The translations under genes and the position numbers were made by a program. From an uncultured bacterium (GTDB taxonomy: Bacteria; Planctomycetota; UBA1135; GCA-002686595), in assembly GCA_937896235.1 (NCBI GenBank), contig CALBMX010000108.1:1-64000 (forward strand): DNA of 64,000 bases, written 5' to 3'. The notes under the pieces were generated by a model. That model saw only the letters and a program-made list of their open reading frames with translations. It was not told the origin of the DNA and ran no database searches. Shown in pieces: positions 7,411 through 37,331 of this stretch; positions within the stretch are counted from its first letter, which is position 1; each line of letters begins with the position of its first letter.

Positions 7411-7804
7411 GGGAAAATCGGGGATTAGAGGCTGGGCTACAGGGGGAGCGGGGGGAGAACGTAGCTTGCAGGGGCGTAAATCTCACGGTCAAAATTCCGG
7501 CACTCGAATGGCTTCCCGGGCTAGGGGGGAGTTTAGAGGGGCGGTTTGGGAGTAAAGATGGGGTGAAATGGGGAATGGGGTCCCCTCTAAGGTGTTCTAG
7601 ATCGATTGAGGTGGCATCCGCCATTTGTTCAAACACCAGGATCCATCTTCCCTTAAATAAAGAGAATCGTTTCGAGGGCGAGCCTCCAGAAAAGCTCCTT
7701 GAGGGTACGATAAGTGGTATTGAGAGGCCTGTGAGTCACCTTGATCCGGCATGCATGTTCCCCTCCCGCTTCCGCTCCCTGCACCTCTTGCACGTGTTGG
7801 CTCC
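7411..7804. other. Divergent intergenic region
   Basis: About 390 bp separate the leftward AgcS-family gene and the rightward FG-GAP gene. ORFs in it are shadows without family resemblance. It must hold two divergent promoters. A/T-richer patches occur around 7650-7670, but I cannot assign -35/-10 elements with confidence. Confidence 0.35.
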
Positions 7805-10546
7805 ATGCCCAAGTTTTCAGCCTTCTTGGCTCTTGCACTTTGCCTAAGCGGCCCGGCGCTCAACACGAGCGCCCAAACCACGGTGGTCTCCACGCCTCCG
7901 CCGGGCTCGCAGACACCCATCTCAAGCGCGAACGTGGAGGGCTTTGTGCTCGATCCACTGCAGACCGCGAACCAGGTCTACCTACGCACTCGCTATCCCG
8001 ACGGAACGATTTGCCCACCAATCGTCAGCGATGGTGGCTTTGAACCCAGCCAGCTCGGGTGGGACTACGACATCAACTGGGACGGTGCAGGCTTCGGAAC
8101 GTTCAAGGGCCGAATCAAGTGGCTCCAGACAGGCACGAATTTCATCGACATCTACCTGCCGGGGGACAGCTTAGGGGCACCGAGCTACACCCAGTCCATC
8201 GTGTACCAACCGGCAAGTGTTCAGCCGACGGACGTTGTGGCGAACATTCACCCTTTGCAGCGCACGATCGACACGGTCCCCGTCGGTGGAGGCGTCGGTG
8301 CGCTGGCATTCCGCATCGACCTATTGAACACGACTCTGGCAACAACCATGAACGTCACCCTAACGGCGACGTGCAAGTTGCCCGACGGCACCGTGGTTGC
8401 GTTGCCGATGGGGGGAGGCGGGTTGCCCTCTAAAAGTTATACGATCCCCGCGGGCGACTTTAGCTACACGTCAGTCCTCGACAAGCCGGGCATGACCTTC
8501 AGCTTTGACCTCGATCAACCGCCGTTTCCGCAGCCGATCCAGGAGGGTGCCTACCACGTCGAAGTCTTTCTCCACTCCGGACCTGCTCTGATCTTTTTTG
8601 ACGAGGCCACTGATTTCGAAGTGGTTGATCGATCGGGCAAAGCCTTCCGAGATGTGACTCACCTCTCGGGCCTTGACAGCGTCGATTTCCAAGGGGGAAA
8701 CTTACCTGCGGCGGGAACGTGCGTGGCAGTGTTCGACTACAACGGGGACGGGCTGCAGGACCTGTTCTTTAGCAACCCCGTCGCCGACGAAATCTTCCTC
8801 GCGGTCGGAAGCAACTTGGCCATCCCCGGAGGCCGCAACTACCTCATGCAAAACAACGGGGACGGAACGTTCTCGGATGTGAGCGCAATTGCGGGCGTCG
8901 AAGGCGAAATGAAAGAGGCGTCGTACGGTGTGACGTGGGGGGATGTGGACAACGATGGCGACATCGATTTCTTTGTGGCCAACCGAGAGCACCCTCCTTT
9001 CTTCTATCGCAATAATGGCGACAGCACATTTACAGATGTGGGCCATGGTTCGTTTGGCTCGGCGACAGCTGCTTGGTGGATGGCGCCGCGATTTGGAGAT
9101 ATCGATGCGGATGGCGATTTGGACCTCTATGTCGGCCGCTATATGGAAGTCTTCTCCTCCACCTGGAAGCTGGACGGTTGGGAGAACCAGCTCTATCGCA
9201 ATGAGCTCAAAGAGGGCGGAACCGATCCGCTCTTTCCGAACTTCCCTCTCTTTACTCGGCCCCCCTCCGCGACGAACTCCAAAGGAGTGACCCTCGGCAC
9301 GTTCTTTATGGACCCTAATCGCGATGGGAATCTCGACCTGTTTGTTCAGAACGACTTTGGTGCGTTCTCCACGTCGAATCAGATTTTTGAGGGCGACGGC
9401 GCTTTCGGATTTACGGATGTGACGGTCGCCCATGGTGGGGACGTTCGTGAATTTTCGATGGGGGCAGCGACGGCGGATTTCGATGGCGATGGCGACCTGG
9501 ATCTCTACTCAACCAACATCGGGCGCAACTCGCTCTTACTCGGCGACGGTTTGGGCAACTTCACTCAAGGAATCTCTGGCTCGGGAGCGGAGGGGGACTT
9601 CTTGACCCTTGGTCCGCAAGCCGACGGGGAGAAACTTAACGACAACTGGGGAGCGATCGCGTGGGACTACGACCTGGATATGGCGACGGATCTCTATGTT
9701 GTCGGCGCGGACTTGTTTACGGGGTACAACATGCCCATCGCAGAGATTCACCCCGACTCCGTCTTCCGCAACGACGGTACGGGCCACTTTACGGAAGAAG
9801 CTGAGAACTTGGGTTTGAACAACGCCGGTCGCGGTCGCGGCGGTGCGGCCATCGACTTCGACAACGACGGCGACCTCGATATCGTAATCGCCTGCGAGAA
9901 CGAGGGGCCCACACTGCAGCGAAACGACCAGGTCCTCACGAATCATTGGATTGGGCTGCGCCCAAAGACAACACGCTCCGCCCCGGGTGGCTTCAACACT
10001 TACTTCGAAGTGAACGCGGGGGGCACGCAGCAGATCTTTGAATTGATGGCTGAGGTCGCCCACGCAGGTCAAGGGGACAACTACCACGTCTTCGGCCTCG
10101 GCGGGAATCTGACTGCCGAGGTTACGGCCTACTGGCAGCGCGGCGGGAGTACGACACTCTTCAACCTTGCTGCGGACAGCGAGAAGTGGATTTACGAGAC
10201 CGTGATTGAAATTGAAGGCGAGATCGATGGCTCGATTCAGGAGGGGAATGCGCCGACCGTTCGCCTGCTAGGTCCCCCGCTAAGCCTTGGAATCGCCGTT
10301 CTTGGTGATCCCTCCATCCCGGCCGCTTTCCCGCTTCCAAGTGGCGGCACGCTTGACCTGTGGCCCAACTTTTCCTTTTTACATGTCGCGTTTCTTGACG
10401 GTACCGGTGTTGCACCCTGGCCTCTTCCTACGATTCCAGTTGGATTCGCGGGTTTCACTTTTGACTTCCAAATGGTGACTTTCGATGTTGGCCTTTCCAA
10501 CTACGACTCGAAGTCAGGGCTCAGCAGCCTAACGGTCACGCAATAG
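7805..10546 (+). CDS. Secreted FG-GAP/VCBS repeat protein with ASPIC/UnbV-like C-terminal region
   Basis: The protein has about 913 residues from the ATG at 7805, which starts on a signal peptide (MPKFSAFLALALCLSGPALN); the track start at 7751 only adds a Pro-rich leader. The first 300 residues form a beta-rich region. Then come FG-GAP/VCBS Ca-binding blades: 'DYNGDGLQDLFF', 'DVDNDGDIDFFVANRE', 'DIDADGDLDLYVGRY', 'DFDGDGDLDLYSTNI' and 'DFDNDGDLDIVIACEN'. An ASPIC/UnbV-like stretch ('LRPKTTRSAPGGFNTYFEV') follows, and a C-terminal domain ends in 'SKSGLSSLTVTQ'. These proteins are extracellular or surface beta-propellers; the ligand is unknown. It is a close paralogue of the gene at 27176, with the same domain order and the same N- and C-terminal motifs. 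Confidence 0.87.
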   Translation: MPKFSAFLALALCLSGPALNTSAQTTVVSTPPPGSQTPISSANVEGFVLDPLQTANQVYLRTRYPDGTICPPIVSDGGFEPSQLGWDYDINWDGAGFGTFKGRIKWLQTGTNFIDIYLPGDSLGAPSYTQSIVYQPASVQPTDVVANIHPLQRTIDTVPVGGGVGALAFRIDLLNTTLATTMNVTLTATCKLPDGTVVALPMGGGGLPSKSYTIPAGDFSYTSVLDKPGMTFSFDLDQPPFPQPIQEGAYHVEVFLHSGPALIFFDEATDFEVVDRSGKAFRDVTHLSGLDSVDFQGGNLPAAGTCVAVFDYNGDGLQDLFFSNPVADEIFLAVGSNLAIPGGRNYLMQNNGDGTFSDVSAIAGVEGEMKEASYGVTWGDVDNDGDIDFFVANREHPPFFYRNNGDSTFTDVGHGSFGSATAAWWMAPRFGDIDADGDLDLYVGRYMEVFSSTWKLDGWENQLYRNELKEGGTDPLFPNFPLFTRPPSATNSKGVTLGTFFMDPNRDGNLDLFVQNDFGAFSTSNQIFEGDGAFGFTDVTVAHGGDVREFSMGAATADFDGDGDLDLYSTNIGRNSLLLGDGLGNFTQGISGSGAEGDFLTLGPQADGEKLNDNWGAIAWDYDLDMATDLYVVGADLFTGYNMPIAEIHPDSVFRNDGTGHFTEEAENLGLNNAGRGRGGAAIDFDNDGDLDIVIACENEGPTLQRNDQVLTNHWIGLRPKTTRSAPGGFNTYFEVNAGGTQQIFELMAEVAHAGQGDNYHVFGLGGNLTAEVTAYWQRGGSTTLFNLAADSEKWIYETVIEIEGEIDGSIQEGNAPTVRLLGPPLSLGIAVLGDPSIPAAFPLPSGGTLDLWPNFSFLHVAFLDGTGVAPWPLPTIPVGFAGFTFDFQMVTFDVGLSNYDSKSGLSSLTVTQ

Positions 10547-14632: not shown

Positions 14633-16117
14633 ATGCCCCAGCTTTCACCCGTGACCTCTTTTTGCGCAGTTGCAGTCTCTATTGTACTCGGTGCGTGCTC
14701 TAACGCGCCAACCGGCTTTTCCGCGAAGGGCCCGAATGTGCTTTTGATTTCGGTCGATAGTCTACGCCGCGACCATGTTTCGACTTACGGATATCGAAAC
14801 CGCATCTCGCCAAGCGCGATTACGACTCCAACGGTCGATCGCCTAGCCGCGAATGGGATTCGCTTCAATGACGCGGTTTCTTCGACTTCGTGGACCCTTC
14901 CCAGCCACATGTCTTTGATGACGGGGTTGCCGGACATGCTTCACGGTGTCGTCAATAGCGAGAAGAGCTTGGATCCAGCCCTCTTGACTCTGGCCGAGCT
15001 TCTCCAAGACCGTGGATACCAAACCGGGGGCTTCTTCACGGGGCCGAATCTACACCCGTACTTTGGGTTTGCCGATGGTTTTGACACCTATGAAAGCTGC
15101 AGTGAGGTCGCAATGCCTCTCGGGGCATTTGACGGCATGGAGAACCCCGATCGCCTCGAGATGCACGAGGCTTCCCATAAGGGGTTGACGAGTCCGGTCC
15201 TGCTGGACCGCAGCATGAAGTGGCTCGACGAGGCGGCCGCCCGTGACGATCCCTTTTTTCTGTTCGTACACTGGTGGGATCCGCACTACGACTATGAGCC
15301 GCCCCAGGAGTATGCGGACATGTTCGACCCCGACTACGACGGTGATTCGGATGCGACCAACTTCTACTTGGGAAGGGAGACCAAAACCCCTCGCGACATG
15401 GACTACGTGCAGAGCATGTACGATGCTGAGATCCGCTATACCGATGACCATATCGGCAGGCTTGTGGACCACCTCGACACGTTGGGACTCACCGAGAATA
15501 CATTGATCGTATTCACCGCCGATCACGGCGACGAGTTCTACGATCATGGCAAAAAGGGACACCAACGGAACTTCTACGAGGAGTCCATTCGACTGCCGCT
15601 TGTAATGAGCTTGCCAGGAGTACTTCCCGCCGGTATTGAGATCGGTCGCATGGTGCGTATCCAAGACCTAGCGCCGACGATCCTTGAGGTTTGTGACGTG
15701 GCAGCTCCCACCTATTTCGAAGGCCTAAGCCTACGCGCGCTTTGGGATGAGACTGCGGACCAGGACAGCGTGCCAAAGTCTCCGGTGCAGGTATTCGAGC
15801 TGGATCTCCCCAGCCGAGACATTCTGAAGGTTGGTCTTCGTCGCAAGGACGTCAAGGTGACTTGGGACTACACAGAGGGTACGGGTGAAGTCTTCAATCT
15901 ACGCGAGGATCCATTGGAGTTGAATCCAACGGTATTCACGGATTTCGAGGACCCCGAGCTGGCGGCTGTCCGCTTTCTGAAGGAAAAGCTAGAAGAGCTG
16001 GAGGCGCGTGCGAAGGACATCCCCCGTACTCCAGGCCACAAGGGGGCCGGGGAGATGCCTGTGGAGCTTGAGCAGGATCTCTCAAGTGCTGGCTATCTGG
16101 GTGGCCCTAAAGATTGA
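14633..16117 (+). CDS. Sulfatase-fold lipoprotein with threonine at the nucleophile position (cassette copy A)
   Basis: The 494-residue protein has a lipobox LGAC (Cys22) and an alkaline-phosphatase-superfamily core. Metal ligands are Asp42 in 'NVLLISVDSLRRDH' and Asp297-His298 in 'FTADHGDEFYDHG', with His310 downstream. The position of the formylglycine Cys/Ser of true sulfatases (C-x-P-S-R) reads T88-L-P-S-H. Threonine there is typical of phosphotransferase or phosphodiesterase relatives such as LtaS and EptA, so sulfate-ester hydrolysis by the classical mechanism is unlikely. It probably acts on envelope glycans or lipids outside the inner membrane (inference). It is the first gene of a coupled five-gene operon and a paralogue of the gene at 32520..34046. 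Confidence 0.88.
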   Translation: MPQLSPVTSFCAVAVSIVLGACSNAPTGFSAKGPNVLLISVDSLRRDHVSTYGYRNRISPSAITTPTVDRLAANGIRFNDAVSSTSWTLPSHMSLMTGLPDMLHGVVNSEKSLDPALLTLAELLQDRGYQTGGFFTGPNLHPYFGFADGFDTYESCSEVAMPLGAFDGMENPDRLEMHEASHKGLTSPVLLDRSMKWLDEAAARDDPFFLFVHWWDPHYDYEPPQEYADMFDPDYDGDSDATNFYLGRETKTPRDMDYVQSMYDAEIRYTDDHIGRLVDHLDTLGLTENTLIVFTADHGDEFYDHGKKGHQRNFYEESIRLPLVMSLPGVLPAGIEIGRMVRIQDLAPTILEVCDVAAPTYFEGLSLRALWDETADQDSVPKSPVQVFELDLPSRDILKVGLRRKDVKVTWDYTEGTGEVFNLREDPLELNPTVFTDFEDPELAAVRFLKEKLEELEARAKDIPRTPGHKGAGEMPVELEQDLSSAGYLGGPKD

Positions 16118-16707
16118 AGGCGCGTAGTGTGATCTTTGGAGTGGCACTCGCGTTTGGCCTCCTGCCTCTTGCGAATACGATTCACTCGGTTCGGGATTGG
16201 TGGGAGACACGCGCTGGGAAATCGGAAGTTGAGCAGCTTCGTGAGCTTCGCTTGCCCTGGTGTCGCCCTAGCTTTACCGATCACCTCGACCGTCTTCGCG
16301 AGGTCATCCCCGAGGACGCAGCCATCTTGTGCACTCCGGTTAGCGGTGACGACGAGCTCGGGCGCTCGCGCTGGTACTTATTTCTAGCCGACGCGCTCTA
16401 CCCCCGTCGCGTGTTTGTGCGCGAGCCTTCGTTTGCGAGTGGCACCTTGGTGACCTATCCCGACTGGGTTCGGCACCACTTCGAGGTGATCGACACCGAT
16501 CGCTCGGGGCTGACTACGGGCGGCATCATCACAAAGGCGAAACTCGAAGAGACCGTCCGACTCGGGCTAGAAGAGCGGAGTGTAGAGTGGGAACTCCAAT
16601 ATGCGATGGTTCCCAAGGGACCATTTCGCGACGCGGTTCTCCTGCACAAAGGCGTGGTGGTCGACTATAAGGACGGCACAGAGCTCAACTCAGAGGGAGA
16701 GGAATAG
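16114..16707 (+). CDS. Small membrane-anchored protein of the duplicated cassette (copy A)
   Basis: This 197-residue protein starts with TTG overlapping the upstream stop (TTGA) and has an N-terminal hydrophobic anchor ('VIFGVALAFGLLPLA'). The rest is a soluble, probably periplasmic domain of unrecognised family. It is clearly homologous to the 221-residue protein at 31858..32523: 'RWYLFLADALYPRRVF' aligns with 'RWFLYLNYYAYPLHIY', and both share 'ASGTLV', a Y-x-x-W segment and 'HHFEV' at the same spacing. In both copies it lies between a sulfatase-fold gene and a polytopic membrane protein gene, so the three products probably form one functional unit. No catalytic motif is evident; it may be an accessory or substrate-binding subunit. 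Confidence 0.8.
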   Translation: MKARSVIFGVALAFGLLPLANTIHSVRDWWETRAGKSEVEQLRELRLPWCRPSFTDHLDRLREVIPEDAAILCTPVSGDDELGRSRWYLFLADALYPRRVFVREPSFASGTLVTYPDWVRHHFEVIDTDRSGLTTGGIITKAKLEETVRLGLEERSVEWELQYAMVPKGPFRDAVLLHKGVVVDYKDGTELNSEGEE

Positions 16708-18350
16708 TGGGCCTTCTTGATCCCGATGCATCCGGCGTGATTACGGGGCTCTGCCTGTTTTTAGCGGGGCACTTCATGCTGCGTTTTTCCGTGCGCGGAT
16801 CGGAGCTCCGTGGTGATGCGCGCGTGCGCGGACCTTTAGAGTGGAGCGTGACAGCGCTGATGGTCGGCGCAGCGATTTTACCCGCTCTTGTGATTGCACT
16901 GACCTGGCTCTTCGGTCCGCTGAGTGTTCTGGCAGGGCGCCTTCTTGTGTTCGCGCCCGCAGTCCTTGGGCTAGCTCTTCTTCTCTGGCCTGGACTTCTG
17001 GGAAGCGCTCCCACCCCAGGGCGTTTGGGCTCCGGTGATGTGGTGTATCGATTCCGTGGGGAAGCTCCCAAGTCGGCGCTGGAGCTTGCGGGGTTTGCCC
17101 TGCTTGGAGTTGCCACCCTAGCGATTCTGTTTGCAGCCTTCTCTTCACCGGTCCACGCCTTTGATCCGGTGTTTCACTTCGCTTACAAGGGCAAGATCCT
17201 TTTTACAGAGGGCTTCTCGGCAGAGGCTTGGAGCGATCTAACGGGCCCCGTTGGCAGGGTGATGACCCATCCGACCTATCCGCCCGGAGTGCCTGCACTT
17301 GAGGTGCTTGCGAGCTACCCCCTTGGCGAATTCAGTGCGACTGCAGGCCGTGGCTTGATGGCGCTTTTTGTACTAGCGCCCGCAGCGTGGCTGTTCGCCG
17401 CCATGCGCTCGGTGACTTTTCGAAGCGGCGCGTCGGGGCGCGTAGCGGGGCTACTCGCAGCCCTATTGTGGGTGACCCTTCCGATCCTTTTCTACATTCG
17501 CCTGCCACACGCCGCTGGCGGATTCGACGCGGTTTGGGGGCTTGTTTTTGGTCCGGGGGACTCCGCGGGTGTCGTCGGTTCTCCTTGGCGAGCGACGGAT
17601 GGTCCGAGCTTGGATGGGGGTGGAGACCTTCCACTCGCCGGATTTGTGTTTGGGGCTCTCTTGCATCTCTGGCGGCTCCTACCCGGCACAAGAGGCGAGG
17701 GAGATCGAGCCGACATTTTTGTCGCCGGCGCCCTTCTTGGCGCAGCGGTGCTCGCCAAAAACGAGGGACTGGCGCTCTTCGCCGTCCTGGTTATCGCAGT
17801 AGGCCTTGTGGTTTGTGCGAGGCGCATCGCAGGACTTTCCAGCAGCATCTGGCGCGAGCTCGCGCCACTTGGACTCGCCTCGGCCTTCGCCATCCTCATG
17901 ATCTCACCTTGGTTTGTAATCAAGGCGGGTATTCCCACGATCGACGAGTCCTATTTCGACCTTGTGCAGCCGGCGCACCTCGTCAGCGCTGTCTTCACCG
18001 AGCGACCGAATGGCGAGCTTTCGATAACGATTGTTAGCAGGGAGTTCCTCAAGACCTTTTTGGATCCGCTGCACTGGAACATGATCTGGGTCCTGTTCGC
18101 TGGTTACTTGCTCCACAGCCTACGCCGCCCCGTTCAGCTGCTCGGATCGGACGCCGTCCTGCCGCTATTATTCGTGGTTGGTGGCCTGCTAGCATTCTTC
18201 TTGATCCTAGCAGTGACCCCCTGGCCACTCGGTCAGCTGTTTACAACGGGAATCCCCGACAGGCTCTTCTTACAGCTTGCTCCCACCGCGATTTTTGCGA
18301 CCGTTCTCATCGCCTGGCCAAAGGGAAGGGAAGGGGGAGGGGGAGAATGA
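16707..18350 (+). CDS. Polytopic GT-C-like membrane protein of the duplicated cassette (copy A)
   Basis: The 547-residue protein starts with GTG overlapping the previous stop (TAGTG) and has roughly 10-12 hydrophobic segments. After the third or fourth segment comes a conserved extracytoplasmic loop 'FDPVFHFAYKGKILF' and then 'HPTYPPGVPALE'. An acidic residue in the first large loop is what GT-C glycosyltransferases use for catalysis. Together with 'KNEGLALFAVLVIAVG' this suggests a lipid-linked-sugar-dependent transferase, though I cannot name the family. It is homologous along its whole length to the 545-residue protein at 30224..31861. The operon continues directly into an O-antigen-ligase-like gene through an ATGA overlap. 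Confidence 0.82.
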   Translation: MGLLDPDASGVITGLCLFLAGHFMLRFSVRGSELRGDARVRGPLEWSVTALMVGAAILPALVIALTWLFGPLSVLAGRLLVFAPAVLGLALLLWPGLLGSAPTPGRLGSGDVVYRFRGEAPKSALELAGFALLGVATLAILFAAFSSPVHAFDPVFHFAYKGKILFTEGFSAEAWSDLTGPVGRVMTHPTYPPGVPALEVLASYPLGEFSATAGRGLMALFVLAPAAWLFAAMRSVTFRSGASGRVAGLLAALLWVTLPILFYIRLPHAAGGFDAVWGLVFGPGDSAGVVGSPWRATDGPSLDGGGDLPLAGFVFGALLHLWRLLPGTRGEGDRADIFVAGALLGAAVLAKNEGLALFAVLVIAVGLVVCARRIAGLSSSIWRELAPLGLASAFAILMISPWFVIKAGIPTIDESYFDLVQPAHLVSAVFTERPNGELSITIVSREFLKTFLDPLHWNMIWVLFAGYLLHSLRRPVQLLGSDAVLPLLFVVGGLLAFFLILAVTPWPLGQLFTTGIPDRLFLQLAPTAIFATVLIAWPKGREGGGGE

Positions 18351-21300
18351 CAGGCGCTCAAGTGAAGGCTCAGACAACGGCTCTAGAGTTCGTTTTCCTG
18401 CTCGCCTCCGGGGCCATCGCGCTGCTTTGGGGAACCTTTGCTGTCGAGGCCTGGACGCGTACGGGCTTCTCTCCCGGGGCCCGCGACGCTGGCGACTTTT
18501 GGCCTACATGGATCTTTGGACAGCTCGGCCTCACCCTTCTGTTCTCGTTCAAACATTCACAACGAGGGGGGGCCAAAGGCGCTCCCCTGATAAGCGGCTT
18601 CGAGCGTTTTTCGGGGTTGGTGCTAGCCCTGATTGCTTGGGCACTCTCCGTTGAATTCGCGACGACGATTGCGGCCGTACCCAGCGCACAAGACTTTGGC
18701 GGGGGGCCCGTCTTGCGGCCCTTTGCTCTGCTCCTTGGACTGGGTTTAGGCTGGTATGCGTTTGGCGGGCCTACCCCTCCGGGGGGGAAGTTCCGGCCAT
18801 TTGTGTTTGAACATACTCTGGCGGAGCGGAGCCTTGTGCTCTTCACGATTTTTTGCACTGCAAACGGCAAGCTCTTTATGGGGGCCGGTGGCGACAGCTT
18901 CTCTCTGATTTTGGTGGCGGGTTTGGTGACCGCCGTCTTACTTGGTCGGGGGAGAAGCCTGCGAGAGATCGGCTCGTCCCTGGTCGCTCCGCTGGGGATC
19001 CCAACCCTTCTCGCCATCTTTGTCTTGCCCGCTTGGTGGTGGATTGCCGCAGCCAATGCAGCTGCCCCCGACAATGAGATCGCGCTTGCATGGCGCCTGC
19101 TGGTTCCTGCCAGCGTCTCTTTTTTCGCGATGGCGAGCCTCTCCAAAGATGGAATTCGTCGCGTATTTTGCGGTTTGGTCTTCGGGTTCTCCTGCGCCCT
19201 TCTGGCAGGACTTCTCGGTGTGCTCGAAGCTCTAGAGTTTTGCTCGCTGGAGGACGTCCTCCACTCCAGGCTTCGCATCCTCGGCCTGCACCCGAACCTG
19301 GGTGCAGCCCTGCTCGCCATCGGATTGCCCATTACGATCGGGTGGATACTTGCCCCCCAGTCCGTGTCCACGAAGCGCCGAGTGCTCGGCAGCTTCCTTG
19401 TCGCACTTAGCTCGATCGCGCTCTACCTGACGGCCTCACGGGCAGGTGGTCTGGGGGCGATTGTAGGTCTCGTCGCACTTTGGGCCTTTGCGCTAACGGG
19501 CCTGCCAAGGCGCTTGAACGCGAAACTTCTCCTCTCGCTAACTGCGATTGGAGCCGCTGCATTCCTCCTGTTCTTGACTCCTCTCGGAGATGGCATTCGG
19601 GCATCACTCGATGCAAAGGCGCAAACACAATCCGCGATTGGCCAGCGTTGGCACATTTGGAAGATGGCGGGTGACGCCGCGCTGGATCATCCTGTGACGG
19701 GCATCGGCCCCGTTGGTTTCTCCGGTCATGCTCAATACGCCGAGCCCTCGTACTACGACGGCACGTCGCAAACGCTTCATACCCACAACATCTTTCTCGC
19801 AGCCGTTTCGGGTGCAGGCTTTCCGGGGTTGGTCCTCTTTATTGCCTGGCTCATCGCATTTTTCGGCCTCGGTTTTCGGTCTATTTTGACAGAGGGCAGA
19901 GGGCATCCGCTGTTGGCATCTGTTGTTGCTGCCGCCTTCGGATTGTTTGTGTGCAACCTATTCGACCTAGGCCAGACGCAGCTGACCTTCCTTCCTCTGT
20001 TTTACTGGATTGCATTGGCACTCTTCGGCGCTCAAGCACGACTCTTTGGACCACCGGTTGCCGCTAAATTACCTGTCACTTCCTTGGCCATGCCCTTGAT
20101 CTCTATTCTTGCGCTTTGGCCTACGGCGATCAGTGCTTTGGCCGGCAACTACCTTGTCGAGGGTGCGTCCCAAAGGATGAGCGAGGGAGATGTACAGGGT
20201 TCGATCGCAAGATTGGAAGCGGCTCTACTGCCAGGCTTCTCAACTGCGCGCTCTGAAACACGCGCGCTGCTAGCTCGCCAATATGGGCGGCAGGGGCAGG
20301 TCCGGATGCAGCTGGCAACTCTGAAGGCCGGTGTCGAAGAGTCGAGCTACAACGCGCAAACCAGAAGGCTGTATGCCGAGGCGCTTTTAGCAGCCGGTCA
20401 GTTTGAGGCCGGGGCAGTGGTTGCCCAGCGCGCCTTTGAGCTCGACCCGCGCGGAGCCTTTCTTGGCCAGACGCGTATGCTGCAAGCGTGGGCCGCGTTC
20501 GAGCTCGGGGACGTTGTCGCAGGCTCTGCTCACCTAGTGGAAGGGTTTGCGAGTGAGGCCAGTCCTCCCAAGGGAATGCGCTATACGCGCTCCCCGCAGG
20601 ATGATTCGGTGACGTTCCAAACGAAGGATCATGTGGACGTCTCGCTTGCTGAGATCCTTGCGCAGCTAGGCGAGAACCTAGTCGCTCTTGCCAGCAGAGA
20701 CGAGGTCCGAGCACGCAGGGAGCTAACGGGGTTGATTGAAGGCTACCGCTTCAACCACGCTCCGGCCTTGGCCGCACCCTGGATCCGTCGCGTCATTGAT
20801 GGCTCGAAGAATCCCATCCGCGCAACCTACTACCAAGAGATCGAAGTGCTTCTTAGCGCGGGGCTCGAAGGCGAAGCTCGGGCTGTTTGGGAGGGGATGG
20901 ACCTCGGCGAAGACACCAATCTTTCGGACGTTTTTACGGACCTGTTCGCCGCGGAAAAACAGGTCGCCGATCGGCAACTCAACGTAAGCGGTCTGGACAT
21001 CTTTTTTGTTGCTGGGCAGCTGATTGAGCTCCGCTTGGACTGGGCAGCTCGCCTCTCGCTGGAGGGTAAGCGCAGCAAAGCCGTTCATGAGATCGAGCGT
21101 GCAATCTACGATTCGAGTAGTGACACGAGGCGAACGAAGCTCGCCTTTGATTTTTTGGTTAGGGGTATCGGGACCAAAGAGCAGCGGATCGAGGATTGTG
21201 TCAGGTTCTTATATTTTTCATCCCTTACTCGGAAGGGGTCGATGGATGAGGAGCGCTTCCTCGTCGTCTTCTCTCTCCTGTCTGCCACCTTTGAAGGTGA

Positions 21301-21430
21301 TCTGTCCGCACTCCACTCCGCAGTTGTAGCGGCGCTAGGAGAGTCCGGTGGCTTGGGTTTGGCGGGCGAAAACTTCCTGGCGATCAGCACCAAAATGAGT
21401 GCCTTGCGCGGCCCATCGAGGGGGCAGTGA
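18347..21430 (+). CDS. O-antigen ligase/polymerase-like protein (Wzy_C) with C-terminal TPR region
   Basis: The 1027-residue protein has about 600 N-terminal residues of membrane helices. The Wzy_C ligase signature includes 'SRAGGLGAIVGLVALW', 'DHPVTGIGPVGF' and the conserved His in 'QTLHTHNIFLAAVSGAGFPG'. WaaL/PglL-type enzymes transfer a lipid-linked glycan to lipid A-core or to proteins on the periplasmic side. The C-terminal ~400 residues are a TPR-like helical domain ('NAQTRRLYAEALLAAGQFEA'), probably periplasmic, a fusion often seen in this family. It overlaps the preceding gene by ATGA and is followed one base later by a second sulfatase-fold gene. A second ligase-like protein lies at 37324..39519. 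Confidence 0.88.
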   Translation: MTGAQVKAQTTALEFVFLLASGAIALLWGTFAVEAWTRTGFSPGARDAGDFWPTWIFGQLGLTLLFSFKHSQRGGAKGAPLISGFERFSGLVLALIAWALSVEFATTIAAVPSAQDFGGGPVLRPFALLLGLGLGWYAFGGPTPPGGKFRPFVFEHTLAERSLVLFTIFCTANGKLFMGAGGDSFSLILVAGLVTAVLLGRGRSLREIGSSLVAPLGIPTLLAIFVLPAWWWIAAANAAAPDNEIALAWRLLVPASVSFFAMASLSKDGIRRVFCGLVFGFSCALLAGLLGVLEALEFCSLEDVLHSRLRILGLHPNLGAALLAIGLPITIGWILAPQSVSTKRRVLGSFLVALSSIALYLTASRAGGLGAIVGLVALWAFALTGLPRRLNAKLLLSLTAIGAAAFLLFLTPLGDGIRASLDAKAQTQSAIGQRWHIWKMAGDAALDHPVTGIGPVGFSGHAQYAEPSYYDGTSQTLHTHNIFLAAVSGAGFPGLVLFIAWLIAFFGLGFRSILTEGRGHPLLASVVAAAFGLFVCNLFDLGQTQLTFLPLFYWIALALFGAQARLFGPPVAAKLPVTSLAMPLISILALWPTAISALAGNYLVEGASQRMSEGDVQGSIARLEAALLPGFSTARSETRALLARQYGRQGQVRMQLATLKAGVEESSYNAQTRRLYAEALLAAGQFEAGAVVAQRAFELDPRGAFLGQTRMLQAWAAFELGDVVAGSAHLVEGFASEASPPKGMRYTRSPQDDSVTFQTKDHVDVSLAEILAQLGENLVALASRDEVRARRELTGLIEGYRFNHAPALAAPWIRRVIDGSKNPIRATYYQEIEVLLSAGLEGEARAVWEGMDLGEDTNLSDVFTDLFAAEKQVADRQLNVSGLDIFFVAGQLIELRLDWAARLSLEGKRSKAVHEIERAIYDSSSDTRRTKLAFDFLVRGIGTKEQRIEDCVRFLYFSSLTRKGSMDEERFLVVFSLLSATFEGDLSALHSAVVAALGESGGLGLAGENFLAISTKMSALRGPSRGQ

Positions 21431-21431
21431 T

Positions 21432-22880
21432 ATGTTCAGAATCCGACTGACTCCGAACGGGATCCTATGCAGCGTCTTCGGTGCCCTGGTGCTCAGTTGC
21501 GGGTCTTCCCAAGGTGACGCCAAGCTAAGCACGCAGCCGAACTTACTGTTTGTGGTCTTTGACACGACACGCGCGGATCACCTGACACCCTATGGGTACG
21601 AGCGTGAGACGGCACCGCACGTGGCCGCCCTCGCCAAGCGCGGGGCTGTGTTTGAGGCAGCCCGCAGTGTCTCTACACTCACGCCAGTTTCGGCCGCGAG
21701 CTTCCTAACTGGGATGCAGCCTCTTTCAACCGGAGTCCGCAGCTTGTTTCTCTTTCGGCAGCAAGCTCTCAACCAAGGGGTGACCACTTTGGCGGAGCGA
21801 CTCCGAGAGAGTGGGTATGCGACCGGTGCCTTCGTAAGTGCGGCACCGATGGGCGCGAGGTACGGATTAGATCGCGGCTTCGACGTGTATGACGACGATG
21901 TGAAGGAGGGCGCGAAGAAGCTTCAAAAGATCAAAGTTGGCAATGCTTACCAGCGACGAGCGGATAAAACAACGGATGCCGCGCTGGCGTGGCTGGGATC
22001 ATTGGACCAGGACAAAGACCCGTTTGCTCTGCTCGTTCACTACTTTGATGCACATGATCCGGCAAGGGTCCCGCCCCTTGAGTTTCTAAAGTCACGAGTG
22101 ACTTTCGAGCTCCCCGCTGACCTCGATGAGCGGGGACACTTAGCCGAGCTTTTTGATGGTGCAGAGCCCGGACGCGGCGGCGCAAGACAGTCGGATTTGA
22201 TCGAGCTGTACGACGCTGAGCTCGAGTATATGGACCAACAGTTGGGGCGTATTCTCGATGAGCTCCGTGCTAGTCACGAGCTGGAGAATACCTTGATCGT
22301 TTTCTTGGCTGACCACGGGGAGAGCCTTGGCGAGCATGATTTTTGGACACATGGATTGCTGTGGGATGAGCAGCTACACGTTCCGCTGATCCTTGCTGGG
22401 CCGGGCGTGCCTAAAGGGATCTCCGTTCCCCAAACGGTCTCGCTGGTTGACCTCGTGCCCACGCTGACGGTGCGCGGTGGGCTGATGGGGATGACTCTTC
22501 GCGAGGGGGAGCAGCTCGACGGCCACTCTTTTGGCGCGCTGCTCTCCCTGGCAGGCCAAGGGGAGGCCTTCGAGCAGCGCCCCGTGGTCTCGGAAGTCCA
22601 CAACTCGCCCGAGGATCGAACGGGGCGTCCGGCCGCTCTGTTTGCTGTCACCGCGATGCCTTGGAAGCTCATCGTGGAGCCGGGCGCGCGGGCCCAATTG
22701 TTTCATCTCGGCGAGGATCCAGGGGAGCTTGTCGACCTGTATACAGAGGCGCATCCTGCGGGACGCGCGCTTGCTGCTGTGCTGCTGGCCTCGGGATGTA
22801 CGGAGGCGGCAGACTTGCCGTCTCTCGAAGACTTGACCGAGGAAGAGCGCACGATGCTCGGCGATTTAGGCTACTTCTAG
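21432..22880 (+). CDS. Second sulfatase-fold lipoprotein of the envelope operon
   Basis: Translation starts at the ATG at 21432, one base after the upstream stop, giving a lipoprotein signal with lipobox LVLSC. The track start at 21399 overlaps the ligase gene and adds a non-signal leader. The alkaline-phosphatase-superfamily core shows Asp44 in 'LLFVVFDTTRADH' and 'FLADHGESLGEHDFWTHG'. The nucleophile region reads 'STLTPVSAASFLTG', again with threonine and without the C/S-x-P-x-R sulfatase motif. It is only distantly related to the sulfatase-fold proteins at 14633 and 32520. Substrate is unknown; the operon context suggests modification of a surface glycan. Its stop shares the bases CTAG with the stop of the convergent DUF3604 gene. 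Confidence 0.87.
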   Translation: MFRIRLTPNGILCSVFGALVLSCGSSQGDAKLSTQPNLLFVVFDTTRADHLTPYGYERETAPHVAALAKRGAVFEAARSVSTLTPVSAASFLTGMQPLSTGVRSLFLFRQQALNQGVTTLAERLRESGYATGAFVSAAPMGARYGLDRGFDVYDDDVKEGAKKLQKIKVGNAYQRRADKTTDAALAWLGSLDQDKDPFALLVHYFDAHDPARVPPLEFLKSRVTFELPADLDERGHLAELFDGAEPGRGGARQSDLIELYDAELEYMDQQLGRILDELRASHELENTLIVFLADHGESLGEHDFWTHGLLWDEQLHVPLILAGPGVPKGISVPQTVSLVDLVPTLTVRGGLMGMTLREGEQLDGHSFGALLSLAGQGEAFEQRPVVSEVHNSPEDRTGRPAALFAVTAMPWKLIVEPGARAQLFHLGEDPGELVDLYTEAHPAGRALAAVLLASGCTEAADLPSLEDLTEEERTMLGDLGYF

Positions 22881-30223: not shown

Positions 30224-31861
30224 CTACTCTCTCTCGCCGCTGTGATCGAGGATCAGGATCGAGGCAAAGATCGCCAAGGGGGCGACGTGAAAGATCAAGC
30301 GGTCGGGGATCGCCGTATTGAAGAGCGCTTCGAGATTCCAGGGTGTGACCAAAAGTACCAGCGCATAAAGTGCGCAGGCCCCCAGGACGACCAGGGCCGC
30401 AGGGAAAGCTGGCGTACGCAAAAAGCGCTTGGGCCGAGCGAGCCCGAGGACACAGGTAGCGAGGAATAGTAGCCAGACGATCCCGAAGCGCGGGATTTGT
30501 GTGAAGGCATCGAGAAATCCGCCGCCGACAATTCGGGGGACGGGTACTTCGGCAATCTCGTTGGTCGATGGGGAGAGGTGAACGGGCTGCGTGGAGCTCC
30601 ACGACTCCAGGAGGCCCGAGGGGGAGAGGCGAGAGGGGTAGTCCTCACCGATCGTCGGGATGTCACCACGCACAGCAAGCCATGGCGAGGCGACAACAAG
30701 CGCAACGATCATGGTGAGGGCAAGGGCACTCGGGGTCGAGAGGGCGCGGCCTTTTAGGGCTGTGGCTGGCTTGCGACGCAGCTCGAGAAGCCAGGTGATG
30801 CCGATGGCGATCACGACTACGGGAAGAAGCGCAAGGCCCTCGTTTTTCATCAGGGCTCCACCGCCGAGTAGAGCGCCGGCAATCAGCAGATCGGCAGTGT
30901 CGCGCCTCTCGCGATCCGTGAGTACGAATCTGAGGAGGACGATGAAGCCCGAGCAAAAGAGTGCGGCGAGGGGCAAGTCACCGGCACCATCTAAGGTCCA
31001 ACCGTCGGGCGTCGACCACTCCCCGAGGATCGGGCCCTTGGGGCCGATCGTGTCGCCATACTTAGCTTGCGCAGCGTCGGGGCCAAAGAACAGCCCATAG
31101 GCGCCCTTTACCCAGTTGTCGTGGGGCAAGCGCGAGTAATAGAGGAACGGTGTGGACAGCCAAAGCAAGGTTCCGGTTATAGGTGCAAGCCAGCTACCAC
31201 TGCGTCCGAGGTCTTTGAGCGTGCCAAAAAGGAATGCTCCCAAGGCGAGCGCAAAAAGTGCGAATAGAGGCCTCGCGGCGTCCTCGGAAAACACGCCGCC
31301 GATCCAGCCGCAAAAGGCTTCGAGCGCGCCTACGCCAGGGGGGTAATCCGGGTGGGTGATGATGCGGCCAAGGGAGTCCTCAACGTCCATCCAAGAGCTG
31401 GTCATTAAGCCCTCGGAGTACAGCAACTTTCCCTTGTAGGCAAAGTGAAAGACGGGGTCAAAGATGTGCATCGGCATCGTTGCCGTGTAGAACACGATAA
31501 AGGCGCCAAATGCGAGAATGAGCCCGAAGCCAAGCAGGCACAAGAGCTCCTCTGCACTGCGCGGAGAGCGCAGTGGTGGGCGCGCCTCCATAGATGGTTT
31601 TAATTGGTGCCGGCGATACAGGGCGATGGCACCTCCAGCGCACAAGACGGCCGCAAGCGCCCGAGTGAGTCCAACACCGAGTGGGCCGATCGCCAGGGCG
31701 AGCCCGGTGACAAGGGCGGGGAGTAGCGCCAGACCGAGTAGAAGTGCGGTTCCATGGAGTTCGGCGGCCCCTCGTCTTCGGCTGGGCCGGAATAGGGCGA
31801 GAGCGAAATGCCCTCCGAGAAAGACCACGAATAGGGTGATTAGCGTGGACGCTGTAATCAT
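30224..31861 (-). CDS. Polytopic GT-C-like membrane protein of the duplicated cassette (copy B)
   Basis: This 545-residue, strongly hydrophobic protein is the paralogue of the protein at 16707..18350. Shared blocks in order are 'HIFDPVFHFAYKGKLLYSEG', 'HPDYPPGVGALEAF', 'LDGAGDLPLAAL', 'KNEGLALLPVVVIAIG' and the C-terminal 'TAIPDRLIFHVAPLAIFA'. The conserved first-loop Asp-Pro and His residues are consistent with a GT-C transferase using a polyprenyl-phosphate sugar, but the family is not named with certainty. It starts inside the stop of the small-protein gene (ATGA overlap) and is last in the three-gene minus-strand operon. Unlike copy A, no O-antigen-ligase gene follows. Confidence 0.82.
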   Translation of the reverse strand: MITASTLITLFVVFLGGHFALALFRPSRRRGAAELHGTALLLGLALLPALVTGLALAIGPLGVGLTRALAAVLCAGGAIALYRRHQLKPSMEARPPLRSPRSAEELLCLLGFGLILAFGAFIVFYTATMPMHIFDPVFHFAYKGKLLYSEGLMTSSWMDVEDSLGRIITHPDYPPGVGALEAFCGWIGGVFSEDAARPLFALFALALGAFLFGTLKDLGRSGSWLAPITGTLLWLSTPFLYYSRLPHDNWVKGAYGLFFGPDAAQAKYGDTIGPKGPILGEWSTPDGWTLDGAGDLPLAALFCSGFIVLLRFVLTDRERRDTADLLIAGALLGGGALMKNEGLALLPVVVIAIGITWLLELRRKPATALKGRALSTPSALALTMIVALVVASPWLAVRGDIPTIGEDYPSRLSPSGLLESWSSTQPVHLSPSTNEIAEVPVPRIVGGGFLDAFTQIPRFGIVWLLFLATCVLGLARPKRFLRTPAFPAALVVLGACALYALVLLVTPWNLEALFNTAIPDRLIFHVAPLAIFASILILDHSGERE

Positions 31862-32523
31862 GGCTTCACCTCGCTTTGCATAGATAGGCTATCGGCGAGC
31901 GCATTGAAGTCGGCACTATCGACGGGCATCCAAACGCCGTCCTCGCGGTGGAAAATCCTGACGTTTTCCATCCGAAAAGACTGGCTGATGAGGTAGGTCA
32001 AGCGCCACTCGATGTTGCGTTTTTCGATCTCCAGATCCACCTTTTTTAGCAGCCGTTCCCGCGTAATAGACTCCGCCATACCCTGAAAGGAATTGTCGAC
32101 GTTGAGCACCTCAAAGTGGTGGTCGATCCAAGGGGTGTAATCGACTAGCGTGCCGCTCGCGAGCTTGGGTTCGTGCGCGTAGATATGCAGTGGATAGGCG
32201 TAGTAGTTGAGGTATAAAAACCAACGTGTTCGGCCGCCCGGTTGGCTCTCTTTCTCGTCGATCCCATGGGGCTCGACGAGGATGCCTGTACCTTCGGGAA
32301 GGTGTTCTTTTAGTCGAGCTATGAGCGCTCGGAATTCGGGTTTGAACCACGGGACGCCCTTCATCGAGGCGCGCTGCTGTTCTAGATCTTTACCCTGTCT
32401 CTCGGCGAACCAAGTTCGCGTGTAGAGCGCACCGAACGCGGCGGGAAACGCCGTCAATACAATGACAAGCGGCAGCAGGAGCCGCAGGGGTGATGGCGCG
32501 GCGGTCGGGGGAGGGGTGCTCAC
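31858..32523 (-). CDS. Small membrane-anchored protein of the duplicated cassette (copy B)
   Basis: The 221-residue protein has one N-terminal membrane segment ('LRLLLPLVIVLTAFPAAFGA') after a Pro-rich cytoplasmic start, then a periplasmic domain. It matches the 197-residue protein at 16114 through 'RWFLYLNYYAYPLHIYAHEP', 'ASGTLVDYTPW' and 'HHFEVLNVD', and both have an 'IEWRLTY'/'VEWELQY'-type segment at the same place. The family is unknown to me. ATGA overlaps on both sides couple it to the sulfatase-fold and GT-C-like genes. Conservation of order in both copies suggests a physical complex of the three products. Confidence 0.8.
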   Translation of the reverse strand: MSTPPPTAAPSPLRLLLPLVIVLTAFPAAFGALYTRTWFAERQGKDLEQQRASMKGVPWFKPEFRALIARLKEHLPEGTGILVEPHGIDEKESQPGGRTRWFLYLNYYAYPLHIYAHEPKLASGTLVDYTPWIDHHFEVLNVDNSFQGMAESITRERLLKKVDLEIEKRNIEWRLTYLISQSFRMENVRIFHREDGVWMPVDSADFNALADSLSMQSEVKP

Positions 32524-34046
32524 TTGTCGTTTGTTTTCTCGGGGTCGGCGCTCTCAAGGTAGCCTGCGGCGGAGAGATCGCTGGTGAGGTCGTCGGGCAG
32601 AGCTGCGTCCGAAACATGCAGGTCCAGCTCCTTCACGCGCGCGTCCAGATCTTCCCAGACGGCGAGGGCTTTCTCTAGCGGAGCCTGTACGCCAGCTCCC
32701 GAGTTGAGGATTGGATGCTTTTCCTTGGGGTCGGTAGCTAAGTCGTAGAGCACAAGGCCCTCCTCTGTTTGCAGGACTTTGAGCCGCTCGAGGCGCGCGC
32801 CCCGATGAAAGCGACTGTCCGGGCGGGAGGTGAGCTCCATGGGCGCGGGGCGTAGTTTCGGGGTGGCGGTCGCATCTGTGCAGGCCTCGCGCAAGCTTCG
32901 ACCCCACATGCCGTCTAGTCCGGGTAGATCGCAGAAATCTAGGATTGTCGGCGCGACATCGGCCAGGCTAACGACCTCGGCGATGCGCTTACCCGCTTGG
33001 ATTTCGCCGGGGAAGCGCAGGATGAGCGGCACATGGGTCTCTTCATCGTGCAGGCTGTGCTTGTGGCCAAGGAAGCCGTGCTCGGCAAACGCCTCGCCGT
33101 GATCCGCGGTGAGTACGACCAGGGTATTGTCGAGCCTGCCCGCTGCGTCGAGTGTGCTCAGGAGGTGCTCGACGTTCCGATCGGTGAATTTGAGCTCGCC
33201 ATCGTAGAGGGCGATCAAGTGGTTTAGATCCTTGGGCGCATTCGCGCGGATGCGAAGGTTCATGAAGTCGCGACCGTCGACCTTTCCTCGGTAGTCGGGG
33301 TCAAAAACGTCGAATTCGGCTGGCGGCGTGTAGTCGTAGTGGACATCCCAAAAGTGCGCAAAGGCAAAGAACGGCTTCTCTGCGGGGACGGTCGCAAACC
33401 ACTCGTTAAATGCAGAGACGACTTTGGGGCCCGTGAGCCCTTGATGGGACTCTTCGTGCATGGCCATGAGGGCCTCGTGGTTGGCCTCGGAATCCTCGAG
33501 CGCAAAAATCGTGGGGTCGGCCACGGCGCGGCTGGAACAGTCGACGTAAGTGTCGAAACCGCGGTCGAATCCGAACCACGGATGCAGATTGGGGCCCGAC
33601 CAGAAGCCGGCCGTAGACCAGTTGGCCTGCTGAAAGCGCTGCTGTAGCATCGGGACGGTCGCGGGGAGCCGATCGGGAAGATCGAGCACGCCATGAAGCT
33701 CGTCTGGGCGGCCCGTCAGCAGGGCCAAGTGCGAGGGGAGGGTCCAGCTCGTGGTGCTGAAGGCGCTGTCGAAGGACGTCCCCTGGGCCGCCAGCAGCTT
33801 GTCGATTGCCGGGGTGGTGGGGATATCCGGGCGCGTGGGGCTCTTGTAGCCGTAGCTGCCGACGTGGTCCGCGCGCAAGCTGTCGATGCTGATGAGCAGG
33901 ACGCCCAGGGGTTTCGTCGGGCTGGGCGCGCCTCCACAGCTTCCGAGGGCGAAGAGGCACGCGAATCCCACGGCGGCAGAAGTTGCGCAGTGGGAGGTCG
34001 AAACGTGGCGAGACCAAGTGGTCCTGGTGTGCAGTGGAAAGGCCAT
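32520..34046 (-). CDS. Sulfatase-fold lipoprotein with threonine at the nucleophile position (cassette copy B)
   Basis: The ATG at 34046 is preferred over the track start (34100) because it lies closer to the lipoprotein signal, lipobox FALGSC. The core matches the 14633 protein: 'VLLISIDSLRADHVGSYGY', 'STTSWTLPSHLALLTG', 'HFWDVHYDYTPP', and 'LTADHGEAFAEHGFLGHKHS'. Both proteins end alike ('LTSDLSAAGYL' here, 'LSSAGYLGG' there). The residue aligned to formylglycine is Thr in T-L-P-S-H, pointing to a phospho-transfer or phosphodiester enzyme rather than a classical sulfatase. It is first of three coupled genes. The gene is divergent from the M1 peptidase gene, with a promoter region of about 180 bp between them. 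Confidence 0.88.
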   Translation of the reverse strand: MAFPLHTRTTWSRHVSTSHCATSAAVGFACLFALGSCGGAPSPTKPLGVLLISIDSLRADHVGSYGYKSPTRPDIPTTPAIDKLLAAQGTSFDSAFSTTSWTLPSHLALLTGRPDELHGVLDLPDRLPATVPMLQQRFQQANWSTAGFWSGPNLHPWFGFDRGFDTYVDCSSRAVADPTIFALEDSEANHEALMAMHEESHQGLTGPKVVSAFNEWFATVPAEKPFFAFAHFWDVHYDYTPPAEFDVFDPDYRGKVDGRDFMNLRIRANAPKDLNHLIALYDGELKFTDRNVEHLLSTLDAAGRLDNTLVVLTADHGEAFAEHGFLGHKHSLHDEETHVPLILRFPGEIQAGKRIAEVVSLADVAPTILDFCDLPGLDGMWGRSLREACTDATATPKLRPAPMELTSRPDSRFHRGARLERLKVLQTEEGLVLYDLATDPKEKHPILNSGAGVQAPLEKALAVWEDLDARVKELDLHVSDAALPDDLTSDLSAAGYLESADPEKTNDK

Positions 34047-34223
34047 AAGTCGCCAACATACACAGAATCGTTCTTCCGTGCCTCGCATTGGCGGCGGCAT
34101 GCTTCGATCGGGACCAAAATCTGGGTAGAATCGCGATCAAATAATGACGTAACGGGGCACGACCCCTTACGCCCTTCCGGCCTGCTTACTTGGTTCATTC
34201 CGGTCTTTTGACCCTAGACGCCC

Positions 34224-36713: not shown

Positions 36714-37331
36714 ATGGCCTGGATCCGACTGGTTGCTGACGACGAGGCAAAAGGTCGCCTCGCAAAATCCTACCGCTCCGCCATTGGGCGGGCGGGTAGG
36801 GTTTTTGGCATCGTGCGAACCATGAGTCTTTCGCCGAACGTTCTCGACGCATCCATGCTGCTCTACCAACGCATCATGTTTGCCAAGGAAGGGCTTAGCC
36901 GGCGCCAACGAGAGCTTGTCGCCGTTGTGGTTAGCGCCGCAAATGATTGCCATTACTGAACTCAAGCGCACCAATGGGATCTCCGTGAAGAGGTTCAAGA
37001 GGAGTTTGGCGAAGGGGGTTTTTCATTTGAGGGGAGCTGTGGTGTCACTGCGCACGAGGCATTCCTCGCAAGGGTCGCCAGCAGCTGGCGCGACGCCGAA
37101 TTGTCTCCAGCTGACCTCGCACTTTGCGGTTATGCGGAGAAGCTCACGTTGACGCCCTCCAAAATGAGGGAGTCCGACGTCGTCACGATGCGAACCGCAG
37201 GATTTAGCGATGTGGCGATCCACGATGCCGTTCAGGTCATCGGGTACTTCAACTACATCAACCGTATTGCCGACGCGATCCATGTGGATCTCGAACCGGA
37301 GATGACGCCGTACCCCGAAGCAGGTGCGTAA
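36714..37331 (+). CDS. Predicted selenoprotein: AhpD-like (carboxymuconolactone decarboxylase-fold, peroxidase-related) with Sec at TGA 36957-36959
   Basis: A single 205-residue frame runs from the ATG at 36714 to TAA at 37329-37331 if the TGA at 36957-36959 is read through. Across it the sequence is 'ELVAVVVSAANDCHY-U-TQAHQW', which is the AhpD/peroxidase-related motif E-(x)n-C-x-x-C-x-x-x-H with the second, nucleophilic cysteine replaced by Sec82 (Cys79, His86). The rest of the fold continues normally ('LALCGYAEKLTLTPSKM', 'DVAIHDAVQVIGYFNYINR'). AhpD-like proteins are alkylhydroperoxide-linked disulfide reductases or peroxidases; AhpD-like selenoproteins have been reported from marine metagenomes. 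The next gene starts 8 bases before this TAA, consistent with ribosomes reaching the end. The track splits it into 36714..36959 and 37101..37331. Confidence 0.9.
36957..36996 (+). promoter_or_regulatory. Predicted bacterial SECIS element in the AhpD-like gene
   Basis: Downstream of the TGA, GGATCTC (36977-36983) pairs with GAGGTTC (36990-36996) through seven pairs, two of them G-T wobbles, closing the six-base loop CGTGAA. The loop has GU at positions two and three, as in the hairpin of the other predicted selenoprotein. The loop begins 24 bases after the TGA, inside the range generally accepted for bacterial SECIS elements. Confidence 0.65.

Follow-up and report, generated by a model that had tools for sequence, protein, structure and literature searches.

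A conserved planctomycete gene pair encoding a predicted GT-C-fold protein and a small membrane-anchored protein, usually joined by a sulfatase-fold lipoprotein with threonine at the nucleophile position

Introduction

In several enzymes of the GT-C glycosyltransferase superfamily, acidic residues of the first external loop are essential (PMC6801728), and heterodimers within this superfamily have been termed unusual (PMC9306709). Among PF00884 proteins, MCR-1 uses Thr285 as the nucleophile of phosphotransfer (PMC5031297), and members with threonine in place of cysteine or serine are not countable as sulfatases without experiment (PMC5066984). Here we describe a gene unit of the Planctomycetota, bacteria whose envelope glycans are poorly known, in which a polytopic membrane protein (GTC) is preceded by a small membrane-anchored protein (SMALL) and usually accompanied by a PF00884 lipoprotein (SULF). 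The unit occurs twice in the window, the whole 64,000-nucleotide stretch analysed, taken from the start of a 71 kb contig (CALBMX010000108.1) from an uncultured bacterium with a genome of 4.26 Mb (88.5% complete, 134 contigs). The unit is real and conserved; no paper describing it was found in the open literature searched, and by that measure it is undescribed, while its enzymes belong to known superfamilies.

Organization and distribution of the gene unit

An earlier note, made from the sequence of the window alone, had reported a three-gene envelope cassette in the same order, with overlapping start and stop codons, at two places on opposite strands. The open reading frames bear this out, with overlaps of 1-4 bases in both copies, A and B:

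SULF_A, 14633..16117, plus strand: PF00884 (alkaline phosphatase superfamily) lipoprotein with lipobox Cys22
SMALL_A, 16114..16707, plus strand: N-terminal membrane helix and orphan alpha/beta domain; proposed partner subunit of GTC_A
GTC_A, 16707..18350, plus strand: polytopic protein of GT-C fold by predicted structure
SULF_B, 32520..34100, minus strand: counterpart of SULF_A (a start at 34046 is equally possible)
SMALL_B, 31858..32523, minus strand: counterpart of SMALL_A
GTC_B, 30224..31861, minus strand: counterpart of GTC_A

The overlaps of copy A read, in gene order, TTGA, TAGTG and then ATGA into the following gene; those of copy B read GTGA and ATGA. All three protein pairs proved homologous in pairwise BLASTP, as had been claimed: 39% identity over 499 columns for SULF (E 8e-111), 35% over 168 for SMALL (E 3e-34) and 38% over 560 for GTC (E 5e-78).

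The trio is also found well outside this genome; the two outcomes that the earlier note had named as damaging to it, confinement to this genome and a lack of significant similarity, both failed to appear. A search across 85,462 species genomes returned 34 loci, including those of the complete genomes Pla86 and Pla163, and all are labelled Planctomycetota or Planctomycetes except one metagenome-assembled genome (MAG), which groups with them. Because the scan was seeded by exact peptide patterns, more distant carriers would be missed. GTC is present in 16 of 61 relatives (the window's own genome included). Within the family to which the window belongs, 11 of 81 genomes have a strong match; in the sister (UBA1135-type) family all 26 genomes carry GTC, among them MAGs with a size of 1.8 Mb and a completeness of 73%. 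That no sampled genome of the sister family lacks it, not even the reduced 1.8 Mb MAGs, makes a basic role likely.

Wherever sequence upstream of GTC is available, in 32/32 genes, SMALL is the gene immediately before it. SULF is adjacent in 27 of the 34 loci; at two others the contig ends first. The order is SULF-SMALL-GTC in the window's family and SMALL-GTC-SULF-Ugd in the sister family, at times with a further SULF in front; the next gene of the sister-family unit, Ugd, encodes a UDP-glucose (uridine diphosphate glucose) dehydrogenase, a second PMT_2 protein is encoded divergently from the unit, and these loci retain a larger block with proS-like, transketolase and Ugd genes. In distant planctomycete families the GTC homologs mostly lack SULF. 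The idea of a three-gene module thus holds in that the unit is conserved, but the trio is not fixed: the SMALL-GTC pair is its core.

The distant families also provided an observation of their own, an overlapping two-gene unit of SMALL-like and GTC-like genes without SULF (L113:6189-8512, L110:7736-10047 and L106:7043-9366).

The GT-C-like membrane protein

The earlier note had called the polytopic protein GT-C-like and had been able to name no family for it or for SMALL, and indeed neither matches a Pfam or NCBIfam family. The predicted structure of GTC_A (pLDDT 84.8, pTM 0.90) agrees with the first statement: in a Foldseek search of the model, only GT-C enzymes came near probability 1, namely STT3 of the human and yeast oligosaccharyltransferase (OST), Pmt4, DPY19 and Pmt1-Pmt2. 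On the strength of this model we assign GTC the GT-C fold. Homologs in distant planctomycete families align along its length (profile match E 1e-56), and several of these exceed the PMT_2 cut-off.

Across 37 aligned rows, the invariant residues are D153, H157, H188-P189-x-Y191, K351-N352-E353-G354, P410, E414-x-Y416, W506 and R519. By charge pattern, the arginine-rich loops 29-42 and 94-123 place the D153 loop outside the membrane, and the order of the SMALL-GTC fusions described below requires the same topology, which would expose D153 on the extracytoplasmic side. In the sister family the corresponding motif reads N-E-F-D-P (E-x-D); the window's family has a single Asp.

The small membrane-anchored protein

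The model of SMALL_A (pLDDT 88.9) consists of an N-terminal membrane helix and a small alpha/beta domain, which probably lies outside the cytoplasmic membrane. A fold search with SMALL returned no PDB match above chance, and its core has no sequence match. The association of SMALL with GTC is closest in one genome (G032, locus L049), where the two are joined in frame, SMALL first; a second genome of the same genus (G452, L121) repeats the fusion, there with a ligase-like gene next to it, and its presence in two genomes excludes an assembly error. In distant families, the overlapping upstream protein matches a profile of the SMALL core (E 3.8e-6).

In the sister family SMALL is longer, about 330 residues, and includes a PF03720 domain (bit score 43.8, cut-off 30) that matches UDP-glucose dehydrogenases in the PDB (1e-14) and that the window copies do not have. 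This domain has lost the segment FKxxTDDxR present in the adjacent Ugd, which makes a catalytic UDP-sugar role doubtful, and we set aside the candidate role of the extra domain as a UDP-sugar enzyme. The domain probably lies outside the membrane, where UDP-sugar is not expected. Membrane-anchored SMALL proteins with a degenerate PF03720 domain beside a complete Ugd were seen at L036:2098-3192, L034:9690-10661, L056:7676-8656 and other sister-family loci.

The sulfatase-fold lipoprotein

That SULF is a sulfatase-fold lipoprotein is upheld by its PF00884 domain (E 3.3e-48 and 7e-43) and by a lipobox with an invariant Cys22; the cysteine or serine that would become formylglycine is missing in every member. 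The nucleophile position (T88) is Thr in 30/30 sequences, never Cys or Ser, in the context W-T-L-[PA]-[SA]-H, and none of the 30 matches the formylglycine pattern [CS]-x-[PA]-x-R (PMC5066984). Threonine at this position makes SULF unlikely to be a formylglycine sulfatase. Nor does SULF have the calcium-binding [DE]-[DQ] pair, which reads D42-S43 in 30/30, while D42, D216, H218, D297, H298 and H310, identical in all 30, are by alignment the likely metal ligands. The closest PDB relatives are sulfatases, and NCBIfam matches to CptA, EptA, LapC/YejM and LtaS are weak. Sulfatase activity was considered as the principal interpretation of SULF and, as such, rejected on the catalytic residues.

Within their own genome, the SULF proteins of the trios score 610-615 bits, against 458 for the next paralog. 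The high-scoring sulfatase paralogs were also considered as hidden cassettes, and neither SMALL nor GTC lies beside any of the three checked. PF00884 matches 108 stretches of the genome, which amounts to dozens of 'sulfatase' genes. In the four best PF00884 matches read, the catalytic position is Thr, suggesting that planctomycete sulfatase counts may be inflated and that 'sulfatase' annotations behind claims of algal polysaccharide degradation may partly denote biosynthetic phospho-enzymes.

Ancestry and surroundings of the copies

The cassette had been described as duplicated in the window. Two homologous copies are indeed present, but the duplication is not recent and the genome has three copies, the third trio, with a ligase-like gene, lying on another contig (C91) among neighbours other than those of the window copies. 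In the GTC tree, copy A, L041, L045 and the third copy form one group (support 100/99), and copy B groups with L046 (support 100/100). L045 (A type) and L046 (B type) are contigs of one MAG from another genus, indicating that the two types split before these genera did; copies A and B are deep, ancient paralogs. The SULF and SMALL trees agree with that of GTC where supported. Distance matrices of the three proteins correlate (r 0.87-0.90), which, with shared phylogeny uncorrected, is expected for genes inherited together and shows common inheritance only. A recent tandem duplication of the cassette was rejected on the GTC tree.

The neighbours of copy B, an M1 peptidase with HEAT repeats and a Wzy_C gene, are those of single-copy relatives, and the neighbours of copy A, a TMEM260-like protein and a 297-residue protein, adjoin the single copy in L029. 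Since both sets are found beside the single copy of relatives, copies A and B sit in one old locus.

Copy A was said to continue into an O-antigen ligase, and the next gene is of this type; the overlapping run extends beyond it to a second PF00884 gene and is at least five genes long:

Wzy_C (PF04932), 18347..21430, plus strand: O-antigen ligase/polymerase-like membrane protein with a long C-terminal part
SULF2, 21399..22880, plus strand: second, distant PF00884 protein at the end of the copy A run, with an uncertain start codon

In SULF2 the nucleophile position is likewise Thr. A Wzy_C gene directly follows both copy A and the third copy. Elsewhere in the window, a second Wzy_C O-antigen ligase-like protein (37324-39519) is syntenic with copy B in relatives (L029-L031). 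An M1-family metallopeptidase with C-terminal HEAT repeats (34224-36710) adjoins copy B and is kept beside the unit in relatives, and a TMEM260-like protein of an O-mannosyltransferase family (PF11028; 11889-13676) adjoins copy A divergently. Large secreted proteins are encoded among the glycan genes, one with FG-GAP repeats by Pfam (7751-10546) and two that resemble it by eye (27176-29941 and 43334-46015).

Proposed role and alternatives

We consider it fairly probable that SMALL and GTC form a two-subunit extracytoplasmic glycosyltransferase that acts, together with a phospho-type lipoprotein of the alkaline phosphatase superfamily, on one envelope glycan. GTC would transfer a sugar from a polyprenyl-phosphate carrier to an acceptor outside the cytoplasmic membrane, either a lipid-linked glycan or a protein. 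SMALL would be its dedicated partner, the single helix holding the alpha/beta domain against the active face of GTC, and SULF, with its threonine as nucleophile and with metal ions, might either transfer a phosphate-type substituent on the same glycan or remove one. The Wzy_C protein encoded after copy A and after the third copy could then polymerise or ligate the product. We infer the membrane topology, the donor, the acceptor, a physical SMALL-GTC complex and the chemistry of SULF, and likewise that the cassette modifies the envelope. The presence of Wzy_C beside two copies and of Ugd beside the sister-family unit indicates a polysaccharide, while the PMT-like relatives of GTC keep protein glycosylation possible.

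Several points weigh against this proposal. GTC has no sequence match in the PDB at E 10, and its Foldseek support is modest (best E 4e-3, TM-score about 0.4), so that the match is a fold assignment only. The window copies lack the classical DxD/ED pair and have a single invariant Asp. SULF scores best against arylsulfatase models, lacks the membrane domain by which EptA, LtaS and OpgB reach their lipid donors, and is absent near the SMALL-GTC pair in five of the 34 loci. A polyprenyl-phosphate-sugar synthase or flippase was not found among the subset of neighbours scanned.

Alternatively, GTC may resemble PMT and STT3 in activity as well and glycosylate exported proteins; SMALL would then present the acceptor, and SULF would trim or tag the glycan. 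Its closest folds are protein glycosyltransferases, its distant homologs match PMT_2, and genes for a TMEM260-like O-mannosyltransferase and a second PMT_2 protein adjoin copy A and the sister-family unit, respectively. However, GT-C folds also serve lipids and polysaccharides, and the Wzy_C and Ugd genes point to a polysaccharide; we regard protein glycosylation as unlikely, if worth keeping in view.

It is also conceivable that inheritance alone keeps the three genes side by side, as parts of a conserved chromosomal block with no shared pathway, given the larger block kept in sister-family loci and the loci, including most of those in distant families, that lack SULF. This we judge improbable, because the trio recurs in differing contexts, with other neighbours around the third copy, stays together though gene order differs between families, and includes two genes that fuse. 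A catabolic or remodelling unit, in which SULF is a true sulfatase acting on polysaccharides of algae or of the cell itself, with the membrane proteins doing no more than helping uptake, draws on the strong PF00884 match, the sulfatases nearest in the PDB and the dozens of PF00884 genes in the genome, but is very improbable in view of the Thr and the unmatched formylglycine pattern, the Ser replacing one Asp of the calcium-binding pair in 30/30, and a GTC fold that is that of a glycosyltransferase and not of a transporter.

Comparison with known systems

By sequence, SULF resembles MCR-1/EptA, LtaS and OpgB in its PF00884-type fold, the threonine at the nucleophile position and the putative Asp/His metal ligands; it differs in being a lipoprotein without a multi-helix donor-binding domain, and overall it is nearest to arylsulfatases. 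The three-component periplasmic glycosylation systems (GtrA/GtrB/Gtr, and the pentofuranose systems; PMC11127046) likewise include a GT-C enzyme for which glycan modification outside the membrane has been proposed. Unlike them, our unit includes SMALL and SULF, with no donor synthase or flippase among those neighbours that were scanned. The extra domain of sister-family SMALL is like the C-terminal domain of UDP-glucose dehydrogenase (PF03720), which the window copies lack.

GTC shares with the GT-C superfamily (STT3/PglB, PMT1/2/4, DPY19) its predicted fold, an invariant Asp in a loop placed outside by charge, and a conserved Arg near the C-terminus. It differs in the lack of a Pfam, NCBIfam or PDB sequence match, in its constant small partner, in three extra N-terminal helices ahead of the helix that precedes the Asp loop and, in the window copies, in the lack of a DxD/ED pair.

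In layout, and as an analogy only, the unit also recalls glycosylphosphatidylinositol (GPI) mannosyltransferase I (PIG-M with PIG-X/Pbn1; PMC9306709), in which a GT-C catalytic protein has a partner of its own, with a single helix and a globular part outside the cytoplasm. That system is of the eukaryotic endoplasmic reticulum, the helix of PIG-X/Pbn1 is C-terminal whereas that of SMALL is N-terminal, and SMALL matched no Pfam family and hence not that of PIG-X. Tentatively, we suggest a planctomycete-wide two-subunit GT-C glycosyltransferase, composed of an orphan catalytic family and an orphan extracytoplasmic partner domain that are sometimes fused, and coupled in one lineage to a threonine-nucleophile lipoprotein of the alkaline phosphatase superfamily; in this it could parallel, in bacteria, the GPI pathway, where GT-C enzymes go together with small partners and with phosphotransferases. 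If the two-subunit interpretation is true, the GT-C superfamily would gain in GTC a new family of glycosyltransferases whose partner domain is constant.

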